A stretch of DNA of 64,000 bases from contig CANXME010002275.1 in the NCBI GenBank assembly GCA_948144175.1, forward strand, positions 4,215,001 through 4,279,000. Reading direction: 5' to 3'. How positions within the stretch are numbered: the first letter of the stretch is position 1; every line of letters begins with the position of its first letter. The notes under the pieces were generated by a model. The model was not told where the DNA came from. It saw only the letters and a list, made by a program, of their open reading frames with translations, and made no database searches. This stretch comes from Closterium sp. NIES-65 (taxonomy: Eukaryota; Streptophyta; Zygnematophyceae; Desmidiales; Closteriaceae). Below, one piece after another: positions 20,870 through 51,689 of the stretch. The translations under genes and the position numbers were made by a program.

Positions 20870-23212
20870 TCAGCCTCTGTTCTTTAATTGCTCAAGTTTC
20901 CCAAACAACTGCTCAAGCTCCATTCCCCACTCCTCCTTCACCACTATCGGTTCCAGGTCATCCAGCTCCACTGAGCTCAAAGAATTTCGACCACTGCCTC
21001 TCCCTCGTCCCCTCACACCCTTCACCTTCTTCCGCTCCTCATCCTCATCCTCACTACCAGAAGAAGCAGCAGCAGCAGCAGCGGCTGCGGCAGAGGCAGC
21101 AGCTCGTTCCTCAGCCATTCTCTGCATGCCAGCAAGAACCATCTCGCCTGTGATTGGTGGCAGCTGTCGCCGAGGCCGAGACGAGGACGAACCCTCCGAA
21201 AGCCCACCATCACCATTGCTATTCACCTCAGTGTCTATTGAAGACCAGACCTCCTTCCAGTCCTTCTCTTCAGTGCCTGGTAAAGTGCTTGACACAACGC
21301 CCTTCCTTGCATCATCCCCATCCCCTTCACTGCTGCTTTCACTGTCGCTATCGCTGTCACTCCCACTGGCATTGCCGAACTTGCTTTTCCTGCTCCAACT
21401 CCTCCTGGTGCTTATGCTGCCAGAAGCACCAGCGGCAACAGTGCCTGATACAGCCTTACTACCACCAGTACTGCTGCCGTTCTGATTGCTGCTGCTGGTT
21501 CTCTGCTTCTGCTTCAACTTCTGCTTCTCCAGCTGCTGCTGCTGCTGCTTACCCTGCTGCTTCTCCTGCTCCTGCTGACTCTCAATTTCCATCTTGGTCC
21601 CTGTTCTCACCTCCGTTTTGCTACCTCTTTCCCATCTGGATGCACTGCTTTGCCCACTCTGCTTATTCTCACCCATCCTATCCTTATTGCCACCCCCATT
21701 CTCGTTGCCTTTCCTTCCACGTCCCGCATGGTTCTTTCCACTCTCCTCTCTCCCCATCTCCTCACGCCGCTCATTCCTGCCTCCTTTGCTGCCAGCCCCT
21801 GCTCCCGTTGCGTCCACCCTCGACCCGTTCCCCTTCTTAACCTGGACCTTATCCCCCTTCACCTCCTCTTCCTTTCCCCCCTCTAGTCTGTCCGCCCCTC
21901 CACTCTCTGCCTCTCTTCTCTCTGCCTCTCTTCTCTCCGCCTCTCTTCTTCTGCTTCTGCCATCACCGGCACGCCCCGCACCACCATTTCCGACGCCGCT
22001 CTCAGCACTCTCAACCCTGCGACCTTTTCCTATCTCTCCCTCCTCCTCCCCCAATTCACCCTGCTCCTCGGGATCATCCCACGGGTATCGCGTCTCAGTT
22101 TCCTGCACCTGCATCTTCCGACTTGTTCCTACTCCGTTTCTTACATTTCTCCCCTTCGGCTCTCCTCGTTCCCCAGCAGCACGGCTCACTGGCACTGCGG
22201 CCTGCTGCTGCGCCTCTGCTGCTGCTTTACCCCCCTGCACTTCCACTTCATTGCCTTCTGATCCATTTCTCATCTGCGTTGACTCAAAAGGCGCTTCGGC
22301 GTCCAAGCCCTGCCTCCTCCTCCACTCGACGCTTTCTTCAAACTGACTCTCTCGTGGTGCTGCTTGCTGCTGCCGCTGCTTCTCCGCTGCTTTGAGCTCT
22401 GCTACTTTAATCTCTGCTCGTTTACTCTCTGCGCCTTGCATCTGAGCCTGCAGCGCCCGCAGCTGATCCACATACCCTAACCCGCTAGCCTGATCCAATC
22501 TCTTCTCCTTCTGACCCGACTTCGACCCTCGCTCCTGCCCCTCTGCTCCCACCCCTCCCTGACTGCTCCCTGCTGCCACTCCTCCTCGCTGCTGTCGCTT
22601 CTGACGATTCCCAGGGAGCCTACCGTTTGTACCACCTTCGGCACCTGTCGTTCCTCCATTGCCATTCCCCCGCACTCCTTCTAGCATTGAACCCCCTCTC
22701 ACCCCCGTCGAGGCTCGTTCTCCTTCCACGTGCTGCTGCTGTTTCTGCTGATGTTTCTGCTGCTGCTTCGGTTGCTGCTGTGTCCGCTTCGTCCCCTGCT
22801 CCCCCGGTCTCCTCTCCTCCTCCTGCTGCCGCTGCTCTTGGTGCTGCTGCAGCTCGTTTCTACCAGAATCCCTCCCAGCACTCGTCCCGCCGTCGAGCCC
22901 TGTATCAGAAGCATCCACAGCCCGCTTGTCCACCTGCTTCTCTGCCTCTCCTGCCGTACTTTCGTCAGTCACTCTCTTCCCCTTCTTCGTGTTACTAGAA
23001 GATTCGCGTGTCGTCGTGGAGGGAGATTTCGGAGTCGGGATCAGAGAAGCTAGCTTAGCGAAAGGTCCTGACGCATCGTCTCCGGAGCCGAACCGCGCTG
23101 AAATCGCGGGAGCCAATCGCCTCCTGGAATGCGCAAAATTCCCGTTATACGCAGGCCACTCCATGCCAATCGCCCGTCTGGGGGAGGAACCCGTTCGACC
23201 GGTCCAAGCCAT
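20870..23212 (-). CDS. Low-complexity Q/E/S-rich protein, function unknown
   Basis: This is a long open frame ending at 20870. The frame extends upstream to 23617, but I prefer the ATG at 23212 (MAWTGRTGSS, about 780 residues). The extra upstream part is a 33-bp tandem repeat without protein character, and the residues after 23212 (basic, Ser/Ala/Arg-rich, few acidic) look like an organelle transit peptide. The middle is dominated by polar low-complexity sequence: Q-rich runs, an AERREAERREAE repeat, and K/Q coiled-coil-like stretches. An acidic serine patch (SGSDSDSDSESSSEG) follows. The last 150 residues look most conserved, with PPITGEMVLAGMQRMAEERA, an alanine run, an RGRGRG patch and a closing EWGMELEQLFGKLEQLKNRG. 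I do not recognise the family; transit is inferred, not shown. Confidence 0.6.
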   Translation of the reverse strand: MAWTGRTGSSPRRAIGMEWPAYNGNFAHSRRRLAPAISARFGSGDDASGPFAKLASLIPTPKSPSTTTRESSSNTKKGKRVTDESTAGEAEKQVDKRAVDASDTGLDGGTSAGRDSGRNELQQHQEQRQQEEERRPGEQGTKRTQQQPKQQQKHQQKQQQHVEGERASTGVRGGSMLEGVRGNGNGGTTGAEGGTNGRLPGNRQKRQQRGGVAAGSSQGGVGAEGQERGSKSGQKEKRLDQASGLGYVDQLRALQAQMQGAESKRAEIKVAELKAAEKQRQQQAAPRESQFEESVEWRRRQGLDAEAPFESTQMRNGSEGNEVEVQGGKAAAEAQQQAAVPVSRAAGERGEPKGRNVRNGVGTSRKMQVQETETRYPWDDPEEQGELGEEEGEIGKGRRVESAESGVGNGGAGRAGDGRSRRREAERREAERREAESGGADRLEGGKEEEVKGDKVQVKKGNGSRVDATGAGAGSKGGRNERREEMGREESGKNHAGRGRKGNENGGGNKDRMGENKQSGQSSASRWERGSKTEVRTGTKMEIESQQEQEKQQGKQQQQQLEKQKLKQKQRTSSSNQNGSSTGGSKAVSGTVAAGASGSISTRRSWSRKSKFGNASGSDSDSDSESSSEGDGDDARKGVVSSTLPGTEEKDWKEVWSSIDTEVNSNGDGGLSEGSSSSRPRRQLPPITGEMVLAGMQRMAEERAAASAAAAAAAAASSGSEDEDEERKKVKGVRGRGRGSGRNSLSSVELDDLEPIVVKEEWGMELEQLFGKLEQLKNRG

Positions 23213-23395
23213 TTGACCTGTAAACTTCTCGGAGACTCCATCAGACAGGCGATGCCTGAAAAATAGCCTCTGAGAAGTTGGAAACAAGGGTGGATTTGAA
23301 TATAACCTCTGAGAGCGGAAGGGGTCGTGCAGTGAAAATACTCGCAAATGCCTATCCTGCCAAGCAGATAGTTCCAAATTCGGGCGATTGCTCGA

Positions 23396-23494
23396 CGCAG
23401 AATGTCGCACACGCGATCGTGGGAAATCCGCAGTATGTCGCACACGCGATCGTGGGAAATCCGCAGTATGTCGCACACGCGATCGTGGAAAATC
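23396..23494. repeat. 33-bp tandem repeat, three copies
   Basis: There are three nearly identical 33-bp units (23396-23428, 23429-23461, 23462-23494), each containing TGTCGCACACGCGATCGTGG. They lie 180-280 bp upstream of the preferred start of the minus-strand gene ending at 20870, where promoter or 5' UTR would be expected. The units also read as an ADFPRSRVRHT repeat in frame with that gene. Confidence 0.85.
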
Positions 23495-23883
23495 CGCAGC
23501 TAGTTGATTTCGCACGATGACTGTGATCGACGAATCCAAGCGTGATTGCACGGCAGCGCGCTGCTGCCAGGGACATGCTGCGCTTTTCACGGAGAGTGGA
23601 GCCATGCGCGCGCACACTGTCGACTTACTGAAGCTACGAAGATTGTGCGGGAACTAAAACTGTGTACTAGTAAGGCGTACGGAGTGCGTAGGTGATGAAA
23701 GGTTGTTGGGAGTGACGTGTGCTGTTCTGGTCCACAACGGCACTGGCCGACATTTTTCGCGATAAAGGGAGGCTTCCGCCAAAAGAAGTGTGATACAGAA
23801 CCAAGAAACTCGCCGCTTGGTGATAAAACGGAAGATCTGTAGGAATTTCACATTACGGTATTCATGTTATCTACATTTCTAGT

Positions 23884-26419: not shown

Positions 26420-28792
26420 ATGCCTCAAATAAACATCGGGAGTCACTGGATCTGGGCCAAGCAGCTTGCAGCCATGAACATCCAGCACTCGCTACATTGT
26501 CATGTATCGCAGCTCTTGTGATGGACGGGACCGAAGTTCCTCACAGTCCCTCAGGTTCAACTCTCTAAGTCTTCTCAAATGGTGGAAGTTGGGAGGGAGG
26601 ACTTGAAGTGATGTGCCGCTGACATCTAACTTGTGCAGGTAAGTGAGGGCGGTGAAAGAGCAGGGCAGGCTTGTCAAGAAGGAGCAATTCCGCAGGCTGA
26701 GGTCACCCAATCTCGACAAGGAAGAGATGGTCTCAGGAAGGTGGGTCAGATTCGAAGCTTCAATATGAAGAGATATGAGTTGCACAAGCTGGCCCACACT
26801 TCTTAGAATCTCCTAAAAAAATTCCGCCCATTCCACGTGCAGCTCCCGCAGCTGAGACAGAGAGCCAAGATCACGAGGCAGGTGTTGCATGGACCTGGCA
26901 CATGAGATGTGAAGAACGCAGAGGCATGAAAGGAACCCGAGCAACAGTGGGAATTCTCTTTGTTCAGTGCCCAGGCGCATCTCCAGGTGCTCTAACTGAG
27001 AGAGGCAACAGCTCCTAGCTGGTGCATCCATGATAGCAACCTGATTCAACAACAGCTTCCTAAGATTTGGAGCCGTTGACATGTCAGGAAGAATGATGCT
27101 ACTGATGCCGTTTCCCAACCGCAAGGTTTCCAGAAACCTTGGTAGAGTTTCTTTAGTTTCCGTTAGCGGATAACAGTGAGAAAGATCCAGCTCCCGCAGG
27201 CTCGAGAGGTTTCCCATGGATCTAGGGGCAGATGCGAGATCAAGACACATGTCAGCCTTGAGAGCCTCCAGGCGGCTCAGCTGAGTGATGGATGCTGGCA
27301 GTTCTGTCAGATGACTACAGCTCAAGGTCAGCTCTCGCAGGCCACCCAACTGGCCTGTACCCTCTGGAAGGCTTCTAATGGGACAGTTGCTGAGATCGAG
27401 CTGTGCTAGAGAGGAGAGACGACTGAGTGATGGCGGCAGCTTCTGCAGGACACGATTCCCGCTCAGCACCAAAGTGTGGAGATTGGTCAGCTCGCCTATC
27501 TCCTCCGGGATCGACGTCAGCCTTGAATACATGATTGTCAATGATTCGAGAGCAGACAGGCATGAAACTGCTGCAGGGAGGATCTCAATGTTCATACCCT
27601 TCATGGAGAGCTTCTGAAGCCCGGCGAGTAACCCAATGGAATCGGGAAATTTCTTCAGCGAACAGCCTCTCAACAGTAAGTTCTTCAGCCTTAACAAATT
27701 TCCAAGCTTCTCAGGCAGGCTGGATATACCGCAGTTGGAAATGTTAAGAACTTCCAAGGTGCTGATGCTAGTGAGGGAATCTGGCAGCTCAGTCAAATCC
27801 ACGAATCCGGAAAGAGAGAGTTCGAAAAGAGCCGGGAACCGCTCGCCAAGATTCTCAGGCAAGGAGTTGGTAAGCAGTAAACGTTGAATACGGAAAAGCG
27901 GTGATTCTGACGGAAAATCTGAAGAAAGTACTGTCGACCCTCGCATAAATCCAAGCGAACGAAGTGCTGTCAGATGATCGAATGAAAAATCCTCCTCTAC
28001 ATCATGGAACCATGTCCTTTCTCGAAAAAACAGGCTGGCCAGGTTCGGAATGCGAGTTAACGGCGTCAGCTGATGTAATCGCATGTCCCGTTTCAGAATC
28101 GAAAGATTTGTGAGCGAAGACAGATTGCCGAAGTTTGGGTCCTTCAGAGGCGATATCTTCCCAAGGGACAGAGTGTGCAGGTGTGTCAGATGGAATAACA
28201 AAATTGGGAACTTTGTTTTTCGATGCAGGCACTGAAGTGACAGCTGCTCCAAGCGGCGACATCGGCGGAAAAGACTGTTCAGCCCAGCTGCTGTGACAGG
28301 GTGCTCCGAAATATCAAAGTCGTCCACCTCCTCCTCATCATACGCCTCGTCATCCTCTGGAGCTATACCTGAATCGACATGAAGAGCGGTTAGGTTTGGA
28401 GACGAAGAGCTGAGAAATGCGAGAAAATCGTCATCGATCGTTTCCATGCTCCCGTCGCTCAGGTGCAGTTGAGTGAGATTCGGGAAGGACGCCAAAACGC
28501 GTTTCAGATCCCGGCGAGACACCAGACGATTTGGTGAAACGTGAAGCGTTGTGACGGACTGTGCGAGCTCCCGCCAGCGATGGCAGACCGAGGCGATGCG
28601 GAGAACGTGGGCGACATTGGCAGAGACAGGAGGCAACGAGAAATGCGGTTCAGGCTCTCGATCTGGTTCGATCCCATTACAGACGTAATTGGAGAGTGAC
28701 TATGAAGACGTGGGCTGACAAAGATCAGAATTCCAGAAGATCCTGAGAAGCGCATCGTCGGGAAGAGAGTGGATGCGTGCGGAATGACTCAT
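26420..28792 (-). pseudogene. F-box/LRR protein pseudogene (copy 1)
   Basis: The ATG at 28792 opens an F-box (HSLPDDALLRIFWNSD, continuing ANVAHVLRIASVCHRW), followed by many leucine-rich repeats of the LPxSxxxLxxLxxLxL type. It aligns along its length with the paralogues at 52734-55084 and 58416-60716. Three in-frame TAG stops break it: 28700-28702 just after the first half of the F-box, 26813-26815 in the C-terminal repeats, and near 26492. The paralogue at the second site reads CAG. In known families such proteins are substrate receptors of SCF ubiquitin ligases. The long open segment (28636-26813) suggests recent inactivation, or possible readthrough or splicing that I cannot exclude. Confidence 0.82.
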
Positions 28793-28852
28793 GTCCTAAA
28801 ACTGGCCTTGCAAAGGCTTCAATGTCTGAGACGACTATGCGATACTAAACAC

Positions 28853-29638
28853 TTAGCTTGAGGACAAAACGCTACCGAACACCCCAGCGGAATCAGGTCG
28901 ACGGACCCGAGTTGCCGGTGTCGACGAGGGGGGTCGTCGAAGCCTGGGCCGACGGGGCGGAGCACTGACGCGCGTGCGGGCCCGCCAGCCTGGCCCAGGG
29001 CTGGCCCGAGCGCACGACCGCCGCCCCGCGGCCCCGCCCCGAACGTGAACAGCGGCCCACGTTACCGGGTGGGGTCGGCGAACTGGCGACACCTCGCGCG
29101 TGGGAAAATTACCCTCGCGCGAAGGCAGCCCACGCGCGCCACCTGCCCTCGAGGTCCTAGTAACCCATCGCGGCCTGCCCGGACGGGCAGGCGAGGGCCG
29201 GGCGAAATGTCGGGGCCCCCTCGGGACGCTCGACAATTTCGCGACCCGTTGCGGCGACGCCACGTGTTCGCCCGCCTGCTTCGCATCGGGCAACATGCAG
29301 AATTTGATACATTGCGAACTCAATTCGGGACATCGCGAATTCGATGTCGATCGCTTCGCGGCGCACGTTTTTCGCTTCGGGGCGTGACATCGACTTGCTG
29401 GCTCGGCGGCGAACGAGGACTTGTGCCACTTGTGGAGGACTTGTGCCAAACCCCGCCGAGGAAGGCACCACGAGGGCCGGGCGATGCCTCGACCGTTCCT
29501 GTGGGGCACCGACCCCCTTTTCTTGGTGGAAGGGGGCATAGCTCCTCATTTTCGGCATCTCGTTTCCCTTTCCACCTTTTCCCCAGCTCTGCGCCTTCTC
29601 CCACATTTCACGTCCCTTAGCCGCTTCCCTTCCCCGCC
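28853..29638. other. Left flank of the recombinase element, GC-rich, no gene
   Basis: This is non-coding GC-rich sequence upstream of the first gene. It contains a short direct repeat GAGGACTTGTGCCA at 29415-29428 and 29435-29448 and several TCGATGTCGATCGCTTCGCG-like palindromic bits. It should contain the promoter of the plus-strand gene. Frames open in it are composition artefacts. Confidence 0.45.
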
Positions 29639-32600
29639 ATGTCGGCCGCCACGAAACTCGGCGAAGTGACGCCGACTTCGCAGGACTTCCCTCTGTATCT
29701 CGACCTGGGCAGTGGACTGACTGCCAAGCTCGACGAACACGACTACGCCGTCCTCGTAGACCATAGGCTAGAGTTCAACGCCCGTTGCTTGGGATTCGGC
29801 CTCAAGTGAGTGTCCGTATTGGGATGTCGACGTCGACCGCTGGATACCTTGCAGGTCGACGTCGATAGGGTTGTCCCACGTTAGGGTTTAGATCACTACT
29901 CGGTGACGCACGCAGCCGTAGGTAGGCATCGTACTCCGATCACTACAGTAGGTCGGTGCCCGCATCGGTAGGCGCCATTGATTACAACGTAGCGACGGTG
30001 GTGCACCGTTCTACTCTAGCCATCCCCGTCAGTTGTCGGTTCCAGAACCCACGTGTCCATCCGTCATGCCGTGCACGTCCTCAAACACATCTACTACCCA
30101 TGCATGCGTGCAGGTACGCATGGATCCGCGCGGCGCCGGCCAACATGCGATTGTGGTCGATAGGACTCGGCCGGCTTCGGGCGGCGATGGGCAAGGAAGA
30201 CCACTCATGCTTTGCAACGGTGTTCGACGCCGACGTAGCTGTTATCCCTCTGCATTCGAGGTGAGCCTAAGTCATGATGGTGTGCCTTGATGCCTTATGT
30301 CGCTGCTCCGTTCTGATCGACGTCGTGGTGCCTAGCCTGTGCAGCATCGCACCGCTTCCAGGGGCACATTGTAGCGTCGTGGTCATCCTGTACCCCGGCG
30401 ACTTGTTGCGGGCCGGGGGAGAGACGATCAGGACCTCTGTCCGGCACTTCGACCCGCAAACCGTGAAGCAGTGGCACCGCGACGAGGCGATCCGCGTGCT
30501 GAAGTGAGCTCGATAGTGTAGTCGACGACGCATGCAATTTCGCCGCTGGGCGTTAAGCAAGTCTACTGACGATATGTGCCATGTTGCTTCAGGTTTTTCC
30601 GGGCGGCGGTGCTGGCCGAGCTCGGCCGCGATGGCCGGCACTGGGAGTGGCCGAAGCCTTCTGCTGAAGAGGTGGCGGCCAGGCTCGCCGACTTCAATGA
30701 ACCCGTTCGAGATGTGAGTACCGATCGTTTTACCGTCCTAGCGCGATGCCATCTCCGCCGTCGGTGCTCATCCTTGCTCTCTCCTCTGTTGTTTGCAGAA
30801 AATGCGCGACACCGTCCGGGACGGCGACGCAGGCTCTGGCCTCCTCTCAATGAGCGCGCTGTGCTGGGTGGTGAAGAGGATGGATCGCCTGACCGGCGAC
30901 GACCGTCGCAGTGCGACCAGCATGGACAAGGTCCTCGTTTCGGGGTTGAAGGAGCTGCGGATTCGGATGATGACAAACATCAAGGAACACGTCGCACGCA
31001 GACGGTCAGGCCATGTCGGAGTTGGTGCCGATGCCTGTGAAGACGACGCCGCGGAGCCCCCTTCGGCATCCCAAGCAGTCGGTGTCGCCGACACAAGCGG
31101 AGAGGCCGGAGACGGCGTCGACAAGGCAGATGAGGAGGCAGAGAGGGCTGTGGCGAGGACCGCGGATCAGGAAAAGGAGGAGGAGGAGGATGACACCGAC
31201 GATCAGGATGATAACGAGGAGGATCGTGAGGAGCGTGAGCAGGGGCATGGGCAGGAGGAGGAGGAGGAGGAGGACGAGGAGGAGGAGGAGGAGGATGATG
31301 AGGAGGAGGAGGAGGACAAGGAGGCGGCGGCGGCGGAGGCCGTGGAGCAGGGTTTCGGGTCGGTGGAGCAGGTGGCGGAGGGGGAGAAGCAGCAAGAGGG
31401 GGAGGAGGAGGTAGAGTTCCCCTGGGTCGAATTCGAGATGGAGGATGTTGAGGGAGCGGCGGCGGTGGCCGTGGAGGGAGCGGCGGCGGCCGTGGAGGGA
31501 ACGGGCGGGATGTCGGCGGATGTTGTGTACGTGCGAGGGGAGGGTGCCGATGTGGAGAATGTCGGCGTGGAGGAGGCGCACGTGGTCGGCAATGTGGTTG
31601 GCGACGCGAAGGAGGAGGATAACGTCGCGTCCCCGACGCCGACGGGCGTGGAGACCACCACAGGGAACGCAGGGGTGGAACGCCGGGGTGGAGCGGTAGA
31701 GGCGGGCCGTCAACCGGGTTCCTCAGCAGCTGGTCGGCAGGCAACGCCGGCCGTCGTCGCGCAGCTGCGACAGGAGAACATGTGGCTGAGGGCAGAAAAT
31801 GCTCGACTCGAGACGGCGCTCGGAGTGGAGAGGGGTCGGGTGGACAGGTTCGCGATGGGGATTGGCCACCTCGTGGACAAGCTCAGGTCGTTGGCCGACC
31901 AGGTCGCCGCCTCCGACCAGGACGCGTCGAGTCGGCTGATGGACGCGTCCTTGACCATGGCGACGACCGTGACGGAGAACATCACCGCCAACATGGGTGA
32001 AGCATGGGAGGCGATGAAGGCGTACGCCGAGAGGGCGGAGAGCTGGTTGGACGATCTAGAGAATCCGGAGGGGTTTATGGCGGTGCAACGTGCGAACGCG
32101 GTCGTCGCCCTGGACAACCACGTGGACGAAGCGAGGAAGGGATTGGAGGAATACATATCGAAGCACCTAGTCGCCGCGCAGACCAACATCGCCGCCGCGG
32201 TAACTCAACGCGTCGCCGTCCCGCCGCCCACGCAGCCCGCCCCACCGCCAGCCGTCCCGGACGAGCTCATGAAGTCTTTCAAGGCGGACGTGTTGAAGGC
32301 GGTGACTGAGGCCACCCAGCAGTCGTTTGCTGCGTCCGGGTTAAACCTCATGACCCAGGTGATCGGCCATCTGGCGCCTGGTCGGCATGGGTCGTCGCCG
32401 TCGGACAACGAGGCCGACAAGAAGGGTGCGAAAAGGGCGGGCGGCGGAGATGATGCGTTGAGCTCGAAGCGGAGCAAGGGAGCCGATGGGAGCCGCGGCG
32501 TCGGCCAGGTGGCTCCAGGCGGCTCGCGGAGCAAGGGAGCCGATGGGAGCGGAGGTACGAGCGTGGTCGACCAGCTGAAGAAGAACGGGACCAAGGTGAT

Positions 32601-35020
32601 AAGGACGCACAGCAAGGGCGATGGAATCAGGAGTGCGGAGGGGGGCCCTGCCGACCAGGTTGCCGCTCAAGAGGCTGGACCAACAGCCCCGCCATTGGTC
32701 GCCGAGAAGCCGGCCAGTCTAGCGACCGCACCAACGGCGATAGATGGCGGCGCCAAAACCGTCAAAGGACCGTCCGTCGGAGTGGCGGGGACCACGTCGA
32801 TCCCCCGCAAACCCCCTGCGGCTAGCAGCGCGCCGGTCGCCCCGTCAGCCGCCAACAACGATGGGCCGTCCCTTGCGGCTACTCCAGCACCAGCAGGCAC
32901 GTCTGCCGCCAAGGTTGACGCGGTGGATGCTGCGGCTAACCGCGCTGGTCCGTCCGCCCCAAAGGCGAACGCGCTCAGGGAGATGCTCAGCCGCATGGAG
33001 ACCCATCGACAGGACGTGCAGCAGCCTCCCGTGGTCGGCACCGCGCCGGCCACAACAGCACGTCGCTCGGTCACTCCCCAGGTCGCCGCCACAACGTCCA
33101 GTGCCCCACCTACCGCGCCTATCATCGCCGCCCGTCCTCCTGTGGACCCAAAGTCCGCGTTGCTTCGCGCCCAGTTAGGCGTACGTACTGCGGCTGCGCC
33201 GGCACGGGCTCAGCCGGTATCCAGCTCATGCGCGACGCCGACGTCGGTGACCGTAGCTGCACACACACTCGGTGCGGCTACTATCGAGGCGGTGCTGGAG
33301 AAGGGCGTGAGTGCAGCGCTAGCCACGGGCGGCAGATCAGTTGACCCTGCACAGGCGGCGAAGGACCACAACGACGCCGATATCGCTGCCATCCAGGACC
33401 TGTTGGAAGCGGTAAACCGCCCCAAGCAGCCCCCTGTGCTGGCCATCTTGGACTCGGCGAGTCCCACCGGCTGTACAGCGGAGCCAAAGACGACCACTGC
33501 TGCGGTCGGCGCGGGAAAGTCGAAACGGAAGGGGACGGTCGACGCAGGGAAAGCGAGGCCGAGCTCGAAGAAGAAAACACGGGCGACGTCGGCGATGGTG
33601 AAGTCGGTGCAGAAAGGACAGGGGATGGCGACGGCGATGGTGGAGAAGGAGAAGAAGGAGGAGGAGAAGGAGGAGGAGGAGAAGAAGGAGAAGGAGAAGG
33701 AGAAGGAGAAGGAGAAGGAGAAGGAGAAGGAGAAGGAGAAGGAGACGGAGAAGGAGAAGGAGAAGGAGACGGAGGAGGAGGAGGAGGAGGAGGAGGAGGA
33801 GAAGGAGGAGAAGGAGGAGGAGGAGGAGGAGAAGGTGGAGGAGGCGGAGGAGAAGAAGCTGGAGGAGGAGGAGGCGGCGACGGAGGAGGAGAAGGTGAAG
33901 GTGAAAGAACGGAAGGGTCATGGCATCCGCCACGACTCGACGGGCGACAAGCAAGGGTGGGTGGGCGAGATCAAGGTGGTCGGGAACGAGAGCAGATACA
34001 TTGGCAAGTCCCGCGACAAGATGGAGCTGGCGTACCTTCACTCCATTGTGTACCTCCTGTACGACGGTTTCGTCAGCAAGATCCTCATGGCTGAGCTCAC
34101 CGGCCTGGAGGAAACAGTGATGAAGCAGTGGAGGGCGGTGTGGAAGGAAGTCCGGTTCTTGCCGGCTGGGATGTGGACGGTGATCTGGGCAAGGGGCGCG
34201 TTCCTCCCAAGGACACGGTAAGTCGGATAAACGTCGGCCAAGCTATGATGTCGACGTCGGCGTTCCTAACCGCCAGTTTCGTTTGCGTGACAGGTTCGAC
34301 GACATCCTCGGGAAGTATAGAGCGTACAAGACATCAGGCGATGCGCACCACGACGCGCTTTTGCCCGCGATCTGGTTCCCCGTCGATGCCGACGGGAAGT
34401 CGGATGCAATGATGTCGGCCATGCTTGATCGCGTGTCCTTGTGCGCGGCGTATGGGGAGGTCGCTGCATCCGCGGCGAGAATGGAGGGCGACACGGATCA
34501 GAAGACGGCGAAGGTCGCACAGGCGCTGTCGGCCTCAGCTTGCGCACTGTGGTGCTTAGTCGAGGGCGACGGCGCCCAGGTGGCTGATGCCGTCCGCGAA
34601 GGGAAGGCGGCGGCGATGTTGGTCGGCGCCAGCGAGACTACCGCCGCCGAGTTCAAGAAGGTCATGACGGCGGTGCTGGAGGCCGCGATCAGCAGGCAGC
34701 AACCCCTTGGGGAGGTTGCGCACAACGTCGCACCGGCGCTGGAGTCCACCGCTCTGGCCAAAGCCTATCCGGGGTTGGATGTTGAAGCCGAGGCCAAACT
34801 GATCGCACGAGCGACGGTGGAAACCCTCGCGTTCTGGGGAATGTGCCCCGTGGATGGGCCGAAACTCAGGAAGATCGGCATCGCGGTGCCGCTTGACGCG
34901 CAGATGGAGTACGACATCGAACACAGGGGGAGGAAGAGGCCGAGGGGCAAGCAGGTCAAGGACAGCTCGGGGAAGAAGGGGAAGAAGGGCAGAGCGGGCA
35001 AGGACAGCACGGCGGCGTAG
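29639..35020 (+). CDS. Large acidic/coiled-coil protein of the recombinase element, six exons
   Basis: My splice model has exons 29639-29805, 30114-30260, 30345-30503, 30593-30713, 30799-34217 and 34294-35020. All introns are GT-AG and phases agree, giving about 1,579 residues. Exons 1-4 encode a compact N-terminal region of about 200 residues with Trp and charged residues (QWHRDEAIRVL, HWEWPKPSAEEVAARL). Then come an acidic run (about 322-379), a coiled coil (LRQENMWLRAENARLETAL, about 516-550), an Ala/Pro/Thr-rich spacer, and a K/E repeat (about 1146-1233). A block starting near 1239 (GWVGEI, RYIGKSRDKMELAY) faintly resembles an AP2-type DNA-binding fold. The Ala-rich C-terminal region ends in a basic tail (KGKKGRAGK), a probable nuclear signal. 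Function is unknown; I infer a DNA- or chromatin-binding partner of the recombinase. Confidence 0.75.
31168..31340 (+). repeat. Acidic-coding GAGGAG/GAC tract
   Basis: This low-complexity purine tract inside exon 5 encodes nearly uninterrupted Glu and Asp. A second GAG/AAG tract coding for K/E repeats lies at about 33640-33900. Both are in frame with no frameshift, so they are maintained as coding sequence. Confidence 0.85.
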
Positions 35021-35759
35021 TCGGCATAACAATCTGCCATGGGCGGCAGGAGGGAGCGCAAGTAGGTCTTCTTGCAAGGATGGCCTGGTATGGGCGGCGT
35101 CGATTATGTGGTGTTTTTGGGATTTTTTTTTTCGTTTGATTGTATAGTTTTCGTTGGGATTTCTTTTGTTGGCTGTAACTTTTTGGTAATGCATGTTACT
35201 AGAACACTCCTCGGCAAGGTCGACCTGATATATACCATGTTACTCAAATGCGGGCCCCGGTTCGATGAACCCCGTCGTACGGTGTCGACATAGTGCGTCT
35301 GGCTGTATGCATGTATATTCTCGGCGATGAGCATCGTCGGCTAGGCCGAGATGGTCAATGGTCGGCGCTTTGGGGAATGTGCCGCGCCGCCCAGGTGGCC
35401 GAAACTCTAGGAGGTCGGCATCGATGTGCCGTTTGACGCGCATATCGAGCGGGCATGGACAGCACGGATGCGTAGTCGGCGCGCGGAAGGAGCGCTAGGT
35501 GGTATGATTGCTCGGTTATAGCGTGATGGGCGCCGTTTGCGCCGTTTGCATGCAGTCAGCGATGTCGACATGAATAAGGCACAATGAATTGCACACACAT
35601 GGTGGCGACTATGTCGGAGTCCGACATATCTGGCTCGGATGTATGTGTTGGATCTTGTATGTTCGTGTTGCATCAAAATGAACAAGTGCGATGGGAACAC
35701 AACGGTTTGCTAAATTAACGTATCATCAACCTACGCTAACACATATACACCGAGGATCT
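35021..35759. other. Spacer between the two convergent genes, containing a decayed duplicate
   Basis: This is the shared 3' region of the two genes. About 35369-35535 is a degenerate copy of the last coding part and 3' end of the plus-strand gene. Matching blocks are GGGGAATGTGCC, GGCCGAAACTC, TCGGCATCG and CGCATATCGAG, then GGACAGCACGGATGCGTAGTCGGC, versus 34837-35030, with internal sequence deleted. No functional gene is seen. Confidence 0.65.
35369..35535 (+). pseudogene. Decayed copy of the 3' end of the plus-strand element gene
   Basis: Sequence blocks occur in the same order as 34837-35090 (codons near the end of the gene, the stop TAG, and 3' flank), with substitutions and a deletion of roughly 80 bp. 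This suggests either an older nested copy of the same element or a local tandem duplication that decayed. Confidence 0.65.
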
Positions 35760-38700
35760 TCATGCCGACTTCTTGCGCTTTGACGGAGGACGCTGCGCAG
35801 GTGCGGTCTGCTTGGCCAAGTCGGCCACGGTCTTCGGCATCTGCTCCTCCCAGGTGTCTGGAAACAGGCGGTCGACCCACGTCGTCGGCTTCAGCTCGAG
35901 CGCCACCAGCGCACAGGCGAGGCGTAGCTTCGAGACCACCTTGGGGCCAAGCCCCTTGACGCCCATGCCAGGCTCCTTGGACATCGTCGGTGCCGTCACC
36001 GGGTTGAGCACCGTGAGGGCATCGCAGAAGGTACCAATGCCCGGTGCCGCGATCGTGTTCAGTGCATCGACCACGGCTTCGGTGTCGGCATCGCCGTCGC
36101 TCGCGCGTAGCTGGCGCACCGCATCCATGGCCTTCAGCATGCGGCGCACCCTCATGTTGAGTGCACCCTGGGTCGCGCCTTTGAGGAGGGTGTGGCGGTC
36201 GATGAACCCCGGCTCGGCGACCCTGTCGCAAAGACGACGGGTGTCATTGGCGGTGGCGGAGTTCCAGAGGCGCCAAGCGTCCCGCACGGTCTTTGAATCC
36301 CGCCAAGGTTGCACGACGTTGAGCTCGTAACTGGCCTCCTCTGCCGTCTGGGGGGGTGGCGGGGGTTTCCCATCATCTCTCTTGGCTCCGGTCCCCGTGT
36401 TGGCCGAATCCGCGGAGCCACCTTCGCCCGGAGTTTGATCGGTAGCCGACGTCGGCGCCGCCGGCATCCTCCGGGCTTCTGACACACGGAGTGCCTCAGT
36501 GAGTCGAGCAAGCTCGGCGGTGAGCGACGCGATGGTGTCGTTTTGCTTCTCGATCGTCTCCTGAAAGCCTAGCTTCTCGAGCGCCGAGCGCTCGACCTCC
36601 TTCTTCAGCGCCTCCTTGAGGGACATGTTGTGATACTGGGTGTCCATGCGCACGGATATTTCCTGCAATGTTGGGTGTGCGGAAAGGCGACAAGAGGTTA
36701 GAATTCACCGGCTAAAATCCAACAACGCCGACATGGTCGGCAACTCACCTCCGGTTGTATCTGAGTCGGGTCCCGGCGCTTTTTGATCGTATCGGTGTCG
36801 ACCGACTCGACCCTTTTCGCCCAGTGCTGGAAGAGGGCAATCCTGCAGAGCTTGGAACCTTGGACGTACGGGTGCCACGGTGTGCGGACGAGCTTCACCG
36901 CGAGGTCCTCGGCGACGATTCGTCGGAACATCACGAGGGTGCGCAAGAAGTGCACTGCGGCTGCAGCGGCGTCGCTCCCGTTGACGGCACGCGTCTCCGC
37001 CTGCAAGTCGGAAAGTGGCGTGGGTTAGTAGGGAGTTGGGCAGCCAACTAGGCCACGACGACTGAAATACATTGTCGGCGTCGCGTGACATACATCGCGC
37101 AGCATAGCATCCACGCCGGGGAAGATGTGCTCGGCGAGCAGGTCCAGGAGTTTGTCGGAGGGCTCGACCCTGCTGCGCCCCAAGAAGTAGTCTTGCTTGA
37201 GTCCCGAGTAGCCGGCCTTCTGCATCACCACCCCAACGGGAATGGCCGTGATGTACGCACGCGTCATCTTGTCGAGAGCCCAGTGTCCCAGCTCGGCGAT
37301 CTGGGCGCGCGGCGTCCCTCCGATGGCTAACTCCTGCGCACCTCCGGCGCGGGCGGCGTGCACGTTCCTTTTGCAGAACACCTTGTTGGTCGTCCACACC
37401 TGCCGAGTCCAACGTTGGTGGGTGGCGGAGGAGAGCTCCTCCTGCTCCTTGTCGTTTCTGGCGAAGAAGAGATGCTTCTTGTACCAGCGTTCGCGTTCTG
37501 TGATGTCAAGCGGCGAAAGAAAGTCGGTGCCGGAGAACTGACCGATCTGGTCGAGGATGAAGTGCAGCCACAGGCCGGTCTCGCCGACGGCGCACAGCTC
37601 CGCTTCCAGGTGTCGCGCAGCGTAGCTCTGCTGAAGACGGGCATCCTTGGAAGTCTTCGAGTTACGCGCGGCGATCACCATGACGACCGGCTGGCTATCC
37701 GGGTTCACCTCCGAGGTGCTCGCCAGGTGGTACAAGAAGATGTCGGGGAGCGTGATCTCGCGGATGCTGCCGCCGCGCAGGAGAGTGTGGTGGGAGAGTA
37801 GCGTGAGCACCTTGATGAGCAGGAATCGCCACAGCGTCTGCGACGGAGTGGTAGCCCGCGGGTTCCACGCCGCCGCCGCCCATGTCGGCAGCACCCTCAT
37901 CATGATCTGGCGGAACTGCTCGGCGGTGTAGGTATCGCCGATGGTGCCGCGTCGACGGTCGGCGCAGTTCCTGAACGCAAATCGGCGGGGAAATTCTGTT
38001 AGACTGCGTCGACTTCACAGTGCACAGTGATATATAATAAGGTTGTCGACCAACTTACTTGAGGTCCCTCTCGTTCTTGTGGCGGACGTTGAACCGCACC
38101 TCCGATCTCACCACCGAGATCTCCCTCATAAGGCCCAGCTCCTTCTCTCGGTACAGCGTCGCCTCCACCCTCGCCGCCATCTGGCATGCCTTTATCCGGC
38201 CGAGGATCGTGTGCACAGTTGTCGACCTCACAGGCCCCGTTCGCGTGGCATTGTTCTCCTCCCCGGGCTGGTCAACAATGAGGTTACACTCACGGCTCAT
38301 TTGCTTCACGTAGGCGCGCAGCCGGGTTTCGGTGACCCTAGGGCCGTGCAGCCAGATGTACTGTCGGCGGACCACTTTCTCGTTGCACCAATCCTCTTTC
38401 TTGTTGTCGCGGATGTAGTGGCCGATCTCGTCGACGTGCCTAAGTCGTTGCTCATGGGGTAGCTTGTCGCGTAGCTGCTTCAGCATCTTCGCCGCCCACT
38501 TCTTGTAGTGGTAGATGAACGCGGTGTACAGCCTGAGCGTGCTATTCTTCTCCAAGCATTGTAGGTGTCGTAGGGCGTCCATTATGAGCACGTCAATGCT
38601 GGAGTACACCATGTCGTCCACTACAAAGTCCGTCGCCTTCCACCCTTCGCGCGGCACCGCCATGTGCTGATCGTCCTCCTTCTCGTCCGCGTCGAGCATG

Positions 38701-39056
38701 TCACGTATGTATTCAAATTCCCGCCTAAGGCGTTCTTCCAAGGTGCGCGGATTCGTGCTACGCGGAGGACGGTCGTCGACTTCGTCGTCGCTCTCTTCCT
38801 CGTCCTCCTCGTCGTTATCACCTTGGTTTTCCGAGCCGGCGGGCACCGACGAAGGTCCAGTCTGCCCATCTGCCGTCGGTGTCGACTTCTTCGTAAACTC
38901 CCCAATTGGCGGATTCGGTATGTCCTTGGTGTACTCCCCTTCGGGAATCTGAGTAAGTTTGTCAAGATCGTAAAGCAACTTCAGCGTCTCTACGGGGGCA
39001 GAGGACGGACTGTGGTCGGTTGGGGTACCAACGTCGGGCATGTCGACGTCGTCCAT
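35760..39056 (-). CDS. Crypton/Ndc10-type tyrosine recombinase, four exons
   Basis: Exons are 39056-38059, 37970-37094, 37000-36749 and 36662-35760, with GT-AG introns and consistent phases, giving about 1,009 residues. An acidic N-terminal segment is followed by a core-binding region ending DRRRGTIGDTYTAEQF. The catalytic region carries the first Arg in LLRGGSIREI (about residue 398), a NSKTSKDARL lysine-bearing hairpin, HAAR as the H-x-x-R motif (about 538), GHW, and the tyrosine in RAYI (about 571). IPVGVVMQKAGY follows, as in Crypton/Ndc10 proteins. Exon 4 resembles the helical C-terminal part of those proteins. Exon 5 adds a coiled coil and a stretch (KTVRDAWRLWNSA) like the GCR1_C DNA-binding domain of some Cryptons. 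It probably cuts and joins element ends. An in-frame open stretch upstream (39075-39327, with RTIRAYTAPVNQYHLWL) may be a first exon, so the start is uncertain. Confidence 0.82.
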
Positions 39057-39074
39057 GACCGCTCGTATGCTCTA

Positions 39075-39327
39075 CCGCCGGCCGTGGAAGAGGGAAAGAT
39101 TGGTCAACCAGAGATGGTACTGATTCACGGGTGCGGTGTACGCCCTAATCGTCCTGCGGCTGTCTTCCTCGAATTCCCTCTCAAGTGCTTCTAACTCAGC
39201 GTCGACCTCGAGTCGTTCCAGTTGCGCTTTGATGTCGTCGTCTACCGAATCGGCGGGGGGTGGGATAAGTTGTTGTGGCTGTTGGGCACTAGCCCTTCCT
39301 CTGGCCACGCGTCGCCGACTCGGTAAG
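39075..39327 (-). other. Possible upstream exon of the tyrosine recombinase
   Basis: This is an open stretch in the same frame as the exon starting at 39056, separated from it by a single TAG (39072-39074). It is bounded upstream by another TAG and has no ATG. It encodes an acidic/Glu helix followed by RRTIRAYTAPVNQYHLWL, typical of the start of recombinase core-binding domains. It could be an exon whose splice sites I could not fix, or a decayed original N-terminus. Confidence 0.4.
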
Positions 39328-39937
39328 GTTGGGAGATGCTATCGTCGCCCTGATCTATCGTCGCCGACTTTCCTAGATGACGACCTAGAACCTAGTAAGG
39401 CGAAGTCGACGATGGTCGACCCCAACACCGACCTATGGCAGTCTATTCCAGGTCGTCGCCTTTGTGCCGCCGCTCGGTCAACTCGGCCGTCGAGTAACCT
39501 ACACCCGCAGAGATAGCGAGGGTCCTGTGAAGAAAACGAAGTGCTAGATGGCGCACAGGAGCATGAGAGAAACACGAAGCTGAACCGGCAGAATGAGAGC
39601 GTTGTGCGTGGTCAAGGAGGGGTATGGTTGCGAGCCACTGCGCACCTGCCGCGCTCCACGCAGCCCTCTTTGCAAGCGCCGCTGTGCACGGGCATGACGT
39701 GTCACGATCGATGCATGTCTAGTGTCACGCCGCTCTGCGCTCAACGGCACTCCCGCCGGTGCCTTGCCACGGTGGAATTCACGTGCGCCACGTGCAATAG
39801 GCCGATGACCTAGTTCCACTCTCCCGAAATGCCGTAGCGTCCTGCTCTCCCGCGCAAGCCTCATCGACCTGCGAGTAGGCGCGTGGCCGGAGGCTTGGTC
39901 GACGCCGACATTCCCTGACTCTGGGGCTCTCTTCGCC
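39309..39937. other. Right flank of the recombinase gene, no gene
   Basis: This is GC-rich sequence expected to contain the promoter of the minus-strand recombinase. Nothing else is supported. Confidence 0.4.
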
Positions 39938-40377
39938 GAGGTATACCATCCCAGTCGTCTTTCGCCGCGTGGACGATGGTTACCTTTTTCGTCGGCGCGC
40001 CAGGTTTCTCGCGCAGCGAAATATACCCGGTGGTGCGAAGCGGGGCCACGTCGGCGCCGTCGTGGCACCTCCCGATTGTCAGGGTCGATCTCGGCCGTCC
40101 CTACTAAGCCACGTGGCAGTAACCGCGGCTCGGCGCACGACGTGTCGAGCTGTGGTTCAGGGTCCGCTGAGGTATCCTTCTCAGGTTTCTCTCAGCGAAT
40201 ATCGAGGTCGTCAGGTAGTCGACAATCCCGAGGGGTTGAGGGCCCCGGAGGACTGCCAGGTCGCCCCAGTTTGCCACTCGGATGTCGTCAGGAGCTCGTC
40301 AATCCCGAGGGGGTTCGTTGTCCTATCGCAACCGCGAAATTGGGCGGCAGGTTTCGTCGGCTGAGGTATACCATCCC
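39938..40377. repeat. Degenerate repeat array at the right edge of the recombinase element
   Basis: Several blocks recur. GAGGTATACCATCCC occurs at 39938-39952 and 40363-40377, with a weaker copy near 40169. CAGGTTTCTCGCGCAGCGAA occurs at 40001-40020, with a variant at 40182-40200. TCAATCCCGAGGGG-type blocks lie near 40220 and 40298. Sub-terminal repeats at an element edge are candidate recombinase binding sites, though this is inference from position alone. Confidence 0.6.
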
Positions 40378-41093
40378 CTTGTTAGCAGAGAAATCCGATG
40401 AAACAAGCAAGGGCCAAACAAGAGATTACAGCTGATCTGATCCTGCTTCTTGGTGCAAGTTGCAGCTCCCTGCCGTTTGTATCAATGAAGTCACGTCACC
40501 ATCAACCAGAGAGCTGTACTTCTAAAGTAAACTTGGGACTAAATTTGAGAAATGTTTGAAACTATGGAGCTGGGATGTACTTTCCCGAGGAAAATCTGTA
40601 CCGCTCTTGGTGGGGTTTTGCCATGCTTGCACCAGGCCAAGCTCCAAGCCTGAGACGGACGCGAACACATCAGAAGGGTCACGATGTCTGATGAAAGTGG
40701 TTACCGTGAGCATAACGTCGCAAAACTTACATACTCGTTATGGATAAGAATATGAAGGCGGTGATTAGAATTACAGATAACAACTTAATCTAGACTACAA
40801 TGAAGAACACTGTTCAGGAAAGATGAAAGAAAAACCTTAAAAAATTATACCACTTTATCTTAGAAAGGGATGCACATGTATAAAAATGCTATTGGACAAC
40901 TAAATCACCACAGACTTCTCCATTGTTTCTAAATGTGTTGCGAAGTCACTGAGCTCAACCACCGGGTTTTCCAGACCTAGCCATAGGACACGTGAAATAT
41001 TGATATGGGTGCAAAGAAGCGCGAGTTGGAAGCAATGGGGACATTCAAAAGAACGGTGGAGAGAGTTAGGGCGATAACAACAGCCATATGGAA
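40378..41093. other. AT-richer intergenic stretch, nothing recognised
   Basis: Composition returns to that of the host flanks. No gene, RNA or repeat family is seen. Only short chance open frames are present. Confidence 0.5.
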
Positions 41094-42109
41094 TTAGAGG
41101 ATATATGATGGGGCTGACACATCATGGACGGCATGAGTTAGGATGGATGGCATGAAATGGATGGATAGCATTATATGCATGGATTGCATGAGATGGGATG
41201 GGTGGCATGAAATGGGTCTGATGGCATGCAATGTGATGGGATGGATGGCAAGAGCTGGGATGGGTGACAAGAGATGGGATGGATGGCATGAGATGGGATG
41301 GATGGCATGCGATGAGCTGGGTGGCATGAGATGGGATGGGTGGCATGAAATGGGATGGGTGGCATTAGATGGGATGGATGGCATGAGATGGGACGGATGA
41401 GATAGGATGGATACGATGAGATGGGATTGATGGCATGAGATAGAATGGATCCCATGAGATTAGATGAGATGATGGCATGAGATGGGATGCATGAGATGGG
41501 ATGGATGTCATGAGATGGGATGAGTGGCATGATATGGGATGGCATGGATGGCATGAGATGGGATGGATGGCATGGCATGGGATGGCATGGATGACATGAG
41601 ATGGGATGGATGGCATGACATGGGATGGATGGCATGAGATTGGAAGGATGGCATGAGATAGAATGGATGGGATGAGATGGGAATGATGGGATGGAATGGG
41701 ATATAGATGGGATGGACGGAGTGGAATGTAATGGGATAGGTGGCATGGGATGGAATTAATTCTCATGAAATGGGATGGATGGCGTAAGATAGGACTCAGT
41801 GCATATGATGGGATGGATGGCATCAGCTGGGATGAATGGCATGAGATAGGATGGATGTCATGAGATGGGATGGGATGGAGTGATGGGATTGATTGCATAG
41901 ATGGGACGTATGACATGATATTGTATGGATGCCATGGGATGAGACGATTAATGGCATGACATGTAAACAATATGATATGTAAACGAATGGATGTCATGAG
42001 ATGGAATAGATGGCATAAAACACGATGGATGGCATGAGGTGGGATGAATCGAATGTGGTGTGAGAAGGGATGGATGGCATGATATGGGATGGACTTAGGT
42101 GAGATATGT
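41094..42109. repeat. GGATGGATGGCATGAGATG minisatellite, left block
   Basis: This is a degenerate tandem array built on ATGGGATGGATGGCATGAG, with unit length drifting around 15-20 bp. Frames reading HPISCHPSHLMPSIP on the opposite strand are by-products. The array is interrupted by the copia at 42110-49092 and continues at 49098. Confidence 0.9.
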
Positions 42110-49097: not shown

Positions 49098-51063
49098 TGC
49101 ATTAGGCGGTTTGACGCTATCATGATACGACGGATGGACGGGACCAGATGGTATGGATGGCTTGAGGCTCTGTGACACGAACAAAACAGCTACCGTCAGC
49201 ATCTTGCCTCGTCACCAATACAAAGGCAATGTGGGCCTTGTGCTGCTTCTTTAGTCAATCTAACAATGTAAAAAGCTACCACAGAGAAAAGCCTCACATA
49301 GAAATGAGATAATTGCTTGTACCTTACTACTTTCTACTGTCATGCCACATGAGCCTAAAAAAACCAGCGAGTGAATCACCACCAACTCTTTTGTATCTTC
49401 TTTTTTAGTTGTACTACCAAGTCACTAAACGCAATGTGTTCGTTTTTAGCTCATTCGCCATGTTGTTCATTTTCTATTATGCAAGCACCGAATGGCATAA
49501 AAATAACTGAGGTGAGTGCAAAAAGGCCAGAGTCAGAAGCTAAGGGGACAATCAACTCGTAATTAGCGAGAAAAAACATAAGCGATGGAGCAAAGAGTTA
49601 AAAGTGAGTTAGTGGGGTAACAACAGGCATGTGGGGGTAGTGCATATAGTATGGAAAGAGATGGTGTGGATGGCAGAAGGTATTATGGTAATGAGTAGGA
49701 TGGATGACATGAAATACGATGGATGTCATGATGTAGGATGGGTGCCATGAGATGCCATGGACGGCATTAGATATGATTGATGGCATGAGATGAAAATGAT
49801 GACATGTGATGGAATGGAGGCCACGAGATGGGATGCTTGGCAAGAGATGAGACCTAAAAGCATGCAATGGGATAGGATGGCATGAGATGGGATGAATGGC
49901 AAGAGATAATATGGGTGGCATAAGATGGGATGGCATAAGATGTTATGTGTAGCATGAGCCTAGATAGGTTCCATGAGATGTGATAAAATGGTAGGCATGA
50001 AATGAAATGAATGGCATGATATCGGATAGATGAAATGAAATCGGCTGCATGGAATGAGACGGGACGAATTGCACGAGATGTGCATGATCACTTGATTGGC
50101 TGCATAGCATTCAAAAGGATGTATCGCGTGAGATGGGATGAAATTGTGCATGAGATAGGATGGATGCTATGAGATGCCATGGAGGGCATGGGCTGGGATG
50201 GATCGCATGAGATGAGATGGATGGCATGAGATGGTACGATGTTACGTTGAGCTAGAAATATAATGAATGGGTGGCATGAAATGGAATGGATAGAAGGAGA
50301 TGGAAATGGGCTAGATTGAAACAGACGGGATGCATATGCAATGGGATGAATGACACGAGATGTAATTCATGGTACATGATGGGATGGATGGCATGAGATG
50401 GGATGCATAGCACGAGATGGGTTGGAAAACATTGGTATGTCCTGAGATGGGTTGGGACGGATGTCTTATGACGGGATGGGCAGCATGAGATTGGATAGAT
50501 ATTATGTGTCTTAATTGGATGGATTGCATGGGATGAAATGGATTGTGGCAGGAGATGAGATGGATGGCATGATTTGGGATGGATTGCGCGAGATGGGACG
50601 GGTTGGATGGCATGAGATGAATCGGATTGGATGAGATGGGCTGCCATAAGATGAAATGGTTGGGATGAAAACGAAAGGATGCGTTGAAAGCTTCGGATGG
50701 CATGAAATGGGTTGGATGGAAAGCGATGGCATGGATGGTATGAAATGGGATGAAAGACATGATTTAATATCGATGGGATGAATGGCTTGCGATATGGAGG
50801 ATTGCAGGAGATGAGGTGTTCGGGATGAGACAGGATGAACGAAATGAAAAGGGATGAATGACGTGTCATGGATTGGATGGATGGTATGAGATGGAATGGA
50901 TGGAATGTGATGGGATGGATGGTATGAGAAGGGAGGGATGGTATGGGATGGGAAGGATGGCATGAGATTGTATGGTTGGAGTACAATGGGATGGTTTGGA
51001 TGGGAAGAATTGCTTGAGCTGGGATGGGTCACATGAGATGGAATGTATATTGGATGGCATGAG
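49098..51063. repeat. GGATGGATGGCATGAGATG minisatellite, main block
   Basis: This is the same degenerate repeat as at 41094-42109. It is dense from about 49630, while 49170-49620 is mostly unique AT-rich sequence with no gene seen. It abuts the 20-bp array at 51064. Confidence 0.85.
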
Positions 51064-51460
51064 TTCACATCACTTGCTGCTTCCTCACATCACTTGCTGC
51101 TTCCTCACATCACTTGCTGCTTCCTCACATCACTTGCTGCTTCCTCACATCACTTGCTGCTTCCTCACATCACTTGCTGCTTCCTCACATCACTTGCTGC
51201 TTCCTCACATCACTTGCTGCTTCCTCACATCACTTGCTGCTTCCTCACATCACTTGCTGCTTCCTCACATCACTTGCTGCTTCCTCACATCACTTGCTGC
51301 TTCCTCACATCACTTGCTGCTTCCTCACATCACTTGCTGCTTCCTCACATCACTTGCTGCTTCCTCACATCACTTGCTGCTTCCTCACATCACTTTCTGC
51401 TTCCACACATCACTTGCTGCTTCCTCATATCACTTGCTGCTTCCACACATCAATTTCTGC
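51064..51460. repeat. 20-bp tandem repeat, about 20 copies
   Basis: The unit is TTCCTCACATCACTTGCTGC. Fifteen consecutive copies from 51081 to 51380 are identical, with one partial unit before and four diverged units after. Because 20 is not a multiple of three and the unit has no stop in any + frame, all three frames stay open, producing spurious ORFs of about 125-170 codons. There are no spacers, so it is not a CRISPR array. Confidence 0.95.
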
Positions 51461-51689
51461 AGACTTTCTTCTAACGATGTTTCTTGAGTAAGACACACAT
51501 AACATCTTTCTTCTAAAGATGTTGCTTGGCTTGAGTAAGGCACACACATGATATTGACAAATCCTGCCAATTTGGTTGGGAATTGTAAGAGGCATGAGTG
51601 AACCACCACATTGCTGATCAGCGGGTGGCTGCAACTTGTAAGGGGGGTCAAACAGGTAAGACTTGCAGGTGAGCAGCGAGGCACCCAGT

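Follow-up and report, generated by a model that had tools for sequence, protein, structure and literature searches.

The stretch of DNA analyzed here (the window: 64,000 nucleotides of Closterium sp. NIES-65, contig CANXME010002275.1 of assembly GCA_948144175.1, positions 4,215,001 to 4,279,000 of the forward strand) contains a GC-rich island (61.9% GC vs. about 50% just outside) that corresponds to a mobile element of 11,503 bp (28875..40377 of the window, no strand assigned), in which two spliced genes, a tyrosine recombinase and a second gene (hereafter gene 2), converge. An earlier reading of the sequence alone (the original prediction) had drawn the GC-rich island at 28850-40430, close to the true borders, and had placed both genes in one element, marking this as an inference; island, borders and joint membership were all upheld by the comparisons described below.

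The recombinase gene lies on the minus strand and consists of four exons (exon 1, 38059..39056; exon 2, 37094..37970, which holds the catalytic residues; exon 3, 36749..37000; exon 4, 35760..36662), joined across GT-AG introns into a frame of 1,009 amino acids (aa) without internal stop, the structure and size originally proposed. The Pfam profile NDC10_II covers residues 368-659, from exon 2 into exon 3 (E 1.1e-16; 61.2 bits, cut-off 26.3), and was found in all 39 aligned relatives of the protein. The catalytic motifs that had been read directly from the letters were located at R398, H537-R540 (HAAR), W563 (the end of GHW) and Y587 (the tyrosine of AGY). Among the 120 homologues listed of 168 hits, R398, K438, H537, R540, H562, W563 and Y572 were kept in 110-116, the exceptions being mostly gaps (at most three other residues per site). 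A catalytic R-H-R-Y set is present (R398, H537, R540 and Y572), its tyrosine chosen because the H537-W563-Y572 spacing equals that of Cre; on this basis Y572, rather than Y587 of AGY, should be the nucleophile, a tentative choice, since conservation is equally high at Y587 and Y594 (each kept in 113 of the 120 listed homologues). None of these listed homologues came from outside Closterium, nor did any of the 31 hits (31/31) of a divergent recombinase exon; this search finds only relatives of similar length that have 5-residue words in common with the query, and the recombinase listing left out 48 hits, so that absence elsewhere is not implied. A profile search of the Protein Data Bank (PDB) with the recombinase gave no relevant match.

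Gene 2 lies on the plus strand and faces the recombinase. Its model comprises six exons encoding 1,579 aa (exon 1, 29639..29805; exon 2, 30114..30260; exon 3, 30345..30503; exon 4, 30593..30713; exon 5, 30799..34217; exon 6, 34294..35020), in line with the predicted second spliced gene of about 1,579 residues, and its GT and AG dinucleotides are preserved at the corresponding places in all ten other loci examined. Exon 5 includes acidic and low-complexity stretches and, judged by eye, a heptad-like stretch (residues near 520-570 resemble a coiled coil); the conserved C-terminal part begins in this exon and lies mostly in exon 6. Relatives of the protein align in stretches between residues 12 and 1555. 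Searched as a whole against Pfam, gene 2 gave nothing over the cut-off (the best match was DDHD, at 15.2 bits below its cut-off of 28.3), a sequence search of the PDB returned chance-level matches only, mostly coiled coils, and the word-based search, again requiring similar length, found no relative outside Closterium among its 59 hits (59/59).

Most gene-2 relatives are without a precomputed Pfam domain. The exceptions are P0165 and P0166, with one each (PF08016, which we take to be a polycystin-type channel), and P0160, with two (PF03130 and PF13646, presumably HEAT-like repeats); these three are perhaps merged gene models or elements inside host genes. Two candidate identities were tried and rejected. 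The order of the N-terminal motifs had seemed to us to recall Ulp1, which was not borne out: the C48 (Ulp1) peptidase had no Pfam match in the N-terminal parts (E up to 10), nor in the whole protein over the cut-off, and the candidate cysteine is not conserved. A BEN-like C-terminal part, suggested by a sequence pattern, had no Pfam support in a 170-residue piece of the gene-2 relative P0159.

The extent of the element was established by comparison with other copies in the 874-Mb assembly (2,400 contigs), ten of which were fetched as 20-kb pieces and compared with the window by blastn, while ten further loci were inspected at their ends only. Six of the ten fetched copies align with the window from end to end at 98.3-98.9% identity, starting and stopping at the same positions; at C637 homology begins at 28868 instead of 28875, the earlier start being a chance extension. 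Among the remaining four, homology ends at 39961 in C1756 and at 40181 in C1880, both at inner copies of the right-end motif described below, and at 38464 in C2270, which is truncated, while C985 is a diverged copy (96%) with diverged ends. The flanks of the fetched copies are unrelated to one another, and 17 distinct right flanks were counted among the 18 right ends lined up. Copy number is high: the recombinase has 125 matches or more genome-wide. Splice dinucleotides are preserved in all 11 loci (the window and the ten fetched), the recombinase frame is open in seven of them, and both genes are open in five (the window, C1649, C1746, C1233 and C1548); other loci carry stops or frame breaks. 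Given that end-to-end copies have different flanks, and that the two genes are paired convergently at 79 of the 125 recombinase matches listed, both genes belong to a single mobile unit, which has defined ends and is present in many copies. The six end-to-end copies, sought as the original prediction had suggested, fixed the exact ends, and a comparison of joined flanks yielded one paralogous empty site (C637, see below).

These observations bear on two other origins. Closterium genomes are rich in copy number variation, according to the part of the genome paper that concerns it (PMC10407611), and one insertion has indeed been duplicated, C68 and C1878 having a flank and a right end in common; two unrelated neighbours, a Crypton and another element or a host gene, might thus have been co-amplified by segmental duplication. 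We give this hardly any credence, because in the copies examined homology stops at the same two places within unrelated flanks and the partner gene is kept across deep divergence. Tyrosine recombinases are also carried by DIRS/Ngaro-type elements, as noted in the passages of PMC3212892 that deal with them, and a retrotransposon of this type might have lost its reverse transcriptase. Such a descent is extremely improbable: neither reverse transcriptase nor RNase H was among the Pfam matches of the recombinase, of whole gene 2 or of eight gene-2 relatives, and the recombinase matches the NDC10_II profile in an element whose two genes are open together in five loci.

In order to describe the termini, 16 left ends, selected by an exact GAACACC (C985 being thereby lost), and 18 right ends were lined up from the window and all of these loci. 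Several ends were not recovered where first guessed (left ends of C1640, C429, for which only the inner part was obtained, C68 and C1878; right ends of C904 and C1828); the left end of C1878 was later located further out. The left end (28875..28890, plus strand) reads CCGAACACC[CT]CA, its first two bases being CC in 14 of 16 copies, AC in one and CA in one, and TTA replacing [CT]CA in one. The right end (40360..40377, plus strand) is an 18-bp motif with the consensus GC[CT]GAGGTATA[CT]CATCCC, subject to small variations, and the element contains an inner copy of it (39935..39952, plus strand) and a degenerate middle copy (about 40166..40183, plus strand). The outermost motif serves as right end in 14 of the 18 cases (in a variant form in C2230, C985 and C1006), the middle one in three (C1880, C68 and C1878) and the inner one in a single case (C1756). 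Since ends fall at the outermost, middle or inner motif, the right end is defined by the motif, and alternative copies of it are used. With up to three mismatches allowed, the motif was matched 0.01 times on average in 200 order-1 simulations of the element, and had no match in the rest of the window outside it.

No inverted repeat between the two ends was found beyond shuffled controls, and no target duplication was present in the flanks of the lined-up ends. In C1828 a right end abuts the next left end head to tail (ATCATC-CC-GAACACC), with one shared CC, a junction that has the form of a circle junction. The joined flanks of ten loci (nine fetched ones and the window; C2270 was left out as truncated) and of five more were compared with the fetched DNA, and those of C637, joined with CC, aligned without gaps over 87 bp (77%, E 3e-12) with a related repeat from that region, whose core reads CT. 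Moreover, in an exploratory comparison the 13 bases to the left of the insertions resembled the right-end arm GAGGTATACCATC in register (73 matches summed over 16 flanks, for which C1828, adjoining another element, was omitted and C1878 added). The other offsets (1-11) gave 40-62 matches, and 0.6% of shuffled arms reached 73.

The association of the two genes was evaluated over the whole genome, where NDC10_II gave at least 125 matches and exon 6 of gene 2 gave 159, of which 150 were listed. A listed convergent gene-2 match lies within 12 kb of 79 of the 125 listed recombinase matches (uniform chance expectation, 0.13), and the gap measures 1.6-2.0 kb in 72 of these 79 pairs. Pairing was found for 56 of the 60 best-scoring recombinases vs. 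23 of the 65 others. Six near pairs are non-convergent, four of them being neighbours in same-strand arrays. The array on C1769 belongs to a distant subfamily, with a recombinase identity of 34% over 480 residues; the repeat unit of the array measures 10,422 bp, and the 3,578 bp compared between units are 99.7% identical. On the strand opposite to the recombinase, a 702-aa frame matches the gene-2 protein P0159 (E 1e-6; 33% over 102 residues), and the frame after it matches the gene-2 profile (E 2.5e-6). That a subfamily with 34% recombinase identity has a gene-2 relative at the corresponding position argues for gene 2 being core and not cargo.

Recombinase matches on the same strand, at a spacing of 10.4-11.6 kb, were recorded at C1769:2628904-2650531, C1780:2284070-2295612, C1673:5786227-5798807, C2261:27702-39968 and C1828:380223-392462, and such runs are probably head-to-tail arrays. 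Together with the length of the element, arrays of this kind (the C1769 unit and the further same-strand neighbours) would fit an integrated virus or a virus-like plasmid carrying the recombinase. This origin is very unlikely, as no structural or replication gene was among the Pfam matches and no relative turned up when viral contigs were scanned with the recombinase alignment.

Selection was assessed from the ratio of nonsynonymous to synonymous polymorphism (pN/pS). Within gene 2, the value among close copies was 0.60 for the first 270 residues and 0.30 for the C-terminal residues 1236-1579, the lowest of the parts tested. For recombinase exon 2, comparison with eight search loci gave 0.35-1.19, based on few changes, with the lowest value coming from 27 codons; one further locus was without synonymous change. 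Constraint is clear in the C-terminal part of gene 2, and weak elsewhere.

A natural chimera on C1878 (369281-383250; 13,970 bp, with its right end at the middle motif) separates the two halves of the element: its left end is 95% and its recombinase half 97% identical to the window, while its gene 2 belongs to another type (segments 34-63% identical). Such an exchange, with recombinase and left end staying in place, is what would be expected if gene 2 were cargo of a one-gene Crypton, in the manner of a Starship, and the lack of a Pfam match over the cut-off and the little constraint in the middle of gene 2 (pN/pS 0.95) point the same way. We nonetheless regard cargo as unlikely. The replacing gene still belongs to the gene-2 family, the C-terminal part is the most constrained of those tested, convergent partners at a nearly fixed distance accompany almost all of the best-scoring recombinases, and the arrangement is found again in the C1769 subfamily. 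Distances among recombinases and among gene-2 proteins on shared contigs were correlated (Mantel r 0.69, p 1e-4, n = 14, i.e. 13 contigs and the window, with one pair per contig where several were present), two pairs being discordant: P0097/P0144, from the C1878 chimera, and P0009/P0174.

Taken together, we consider it probable (about 0.85) that this is a Crypton-type DNA transposon with two core genes, which would leave the chromosome as a circle, insert at a 2-bp core and have a motif-defined right end. In this mechanism the recombinase would excise the element as a circle in which the joined ends read ...GAGGTATAYCATC-CC-GAACACC..., and would insert the circle through strand exchange with loosely chosen targets at a core of 2 bp, mostly CC, duplicating no further target bases. 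Every copy of the 18-bp motif could act as right end, and head-to-tail pairs might arise when an element integrates at the end of a copy already present, or when a multimer integrates. As to gene 2, our tentative suggestion, which falls somewhat short of even odds, is a coiled-coil factor accessory to the transposition complex, which would bridge DNA ends or recombinase and act in synapsis, direction or target choice. More doubtful still is the stronger proposal of an obligate two-component transposon, in which gene 2 would be the founder of an unknown family of proteins, co-evolving with the recombinase over deep divergence and serving as its direction, synapsis or target factor.

Several results weigh against this interpretation. 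On the side of the recombinase, GCR1_C had no Pfam match in the whole protein or in its C-terminal 210 residues (a remote version is possible), so that the predicted affinity to Crypton/Ndc10 proteins stood for NDC10_II and failed for GCR1_C; the structure model of the recombinase relative P0005 was poor, with a mean predicted local distance difference test score (pLDDT) of 37.5. The model of P0159 was likewise poor overall (mean pLDDT 42.6), although its C-terminal residues 971-1100 were modelled as helical with block values of 77-94 except 57 at 1041-1050, and Foldseek with the gene-2 model retrieved no fold at E below 0.001. No listed gene-2 partner was present for 46 of the 125 recombinase matches, 42 of which fall among the 65 lower-scoring ones, and no listed recombinase for 71 of the 150 listed gene-2 matches; matches unpaired among those listed are not thereby shown to be single. 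A phmmer search with the 702-aa frame of C1769 gave no gene-2 match. Among close copies, pN/pS was only mildly below 1 for the recombinase (0.62, nine copies) and for gene 2 (0.71, eight copies), and the middle of gene 2, as seen above, came near to 1. Regarding the ends, only CC is common to both termini, where published Cryptons have terminal direct repeats of 4-6 bp, and a spanning empty-site match was obtained for one of the 15 joined flanks, being a paralogue and not an allele. In that C637 site a 1-bp core scored only slightly lower than a 2-bp core (74 vs. 76), and right flanks did not resemble the left-end arm (equalled by 27% of shuffled arms). Circles, moreover, were not among the observations, and the circular intermediate, which others have proposed for Cryptons, is one that we infer.

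Elsewhere in the window, Copia-type retrotransposon frames (integrase, gag_pre-integrase and RVT_2), in GC-rich surroundings with tandem repeats, occupy 4504-8655 and 13358-19182, and a 927-aa open frame without Pfam match at E 1e-5 lies on the minus strand at 20870-23653. Three large leucine-rich-repeat frames are found on the minus strand (26813-28699, 52802-55132 and 58416-61157), with the start of the element 176 bp past the first. A 19-bp repeat (ATGGATGGCATGAGATGGG and relatives) forms arrays over 41124-42093 and 49698-52126, the second stretch being broken.

A second gene beside the recombinase is unusual for Crypton-type transposons, and the host is a green alga close to land plants. 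With this element two questions become accessible to experiment: the way in which Crypton-type recombinases select ends and join them, and the possible need of a eukaryotic tyrosine-recombinase transposon for a partner protein; if active, it would be a candidate tool for DNA insertion in algae.

Among known systems, Starships are larger elements with a tyrosine recombinase at one of their edges, and the recombinase domain of their captain is DUF3435. The position of the recombinase at the edge is shared, but the Closterium element is 11.5 kb long, has no variable cargo in the fetched copies and has both genes reading inward from its edges; DUF3435 was not among the recombinase Pfam matches up to E 1. 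Thus, of the resemblance to Starships that had been proposed, a likeness of layout stands, whereas the recombinase family differs and gene 2 looks core. The Fanzor-bearing MCi-2A, as presented in the passages of Bao and Jurka (2013, PMC3627910) that describe it, is alike in having a second gene beside a partial Crypton-like recombinase, and unlike in that neither Closterium gene has a Fanzor/TnpB domain among its Pfam matches. In the open-licence literature, no report of Crypton elements in Closterium or other streptophyte algae was found among titles and the starts of abstracts; the Crypton passages of PMC11630846, PMC12220804 and PMC10794571 make general mentions, with nothing on streptophyte algae, and the main text of the Closterium genome paper (PMC10407611) contains neither "crypton" nor "recombinase".

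The closest comparison is with Cryptons themselves, for which we rely on the relevant parts of Kojima and Jurka (2011, PMC3212892). Cryptons are described there from fungi, animals and stramenopiles, most hosts having very low copy numbers, whereas the present host is a streptophyte alga with a high copy number. Fungal CryptonF and Ndc10/Cbf2 share the NDC10_II profile match with the Closterium recombinase; Ndc10/Cbf2 is a domesticated gene without catalytic site, in contrast to the Closterium recombinase, which has its catalytic residues and belongs to a mobile element where a partner gene converges on it. Oomycete CryptonS and the CryptonF-2_PS group are alike in having a tyrosine recombinase, no terminal inverted repeats and, in some cases, a second protein. 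Their second protein is a C48 peptidase, present in some CryptonF and CryptonS elements (in CryptonS as an additional protein), which gene 2 does not match, and the termini of CryptonS are direct repeats of 5 or 6 bp, most with TATGG, as opposed to CC alone. Lacking GCR1_C, which CryptonF has, as well as a C48 match and terminal repeats of 4-6 bp, the element, on these sequence features, is not CryptonF or CryptonS as published. Its NDC10_II-related recombinase with catalytic R-H-R-Y, the absence of inverted repeats and target duplication, the tiny core and the likely circle suggest that it works like a Crypton, and it is accordingly filed, provisionally, as a Crypton-like DNA transposon, a variant with a new partner gene. 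That Cryptons usually carry one gene, as the original prediction held, is correct as a rule, and the oomycete Cryptons with C48 are a real precedent for a second one.

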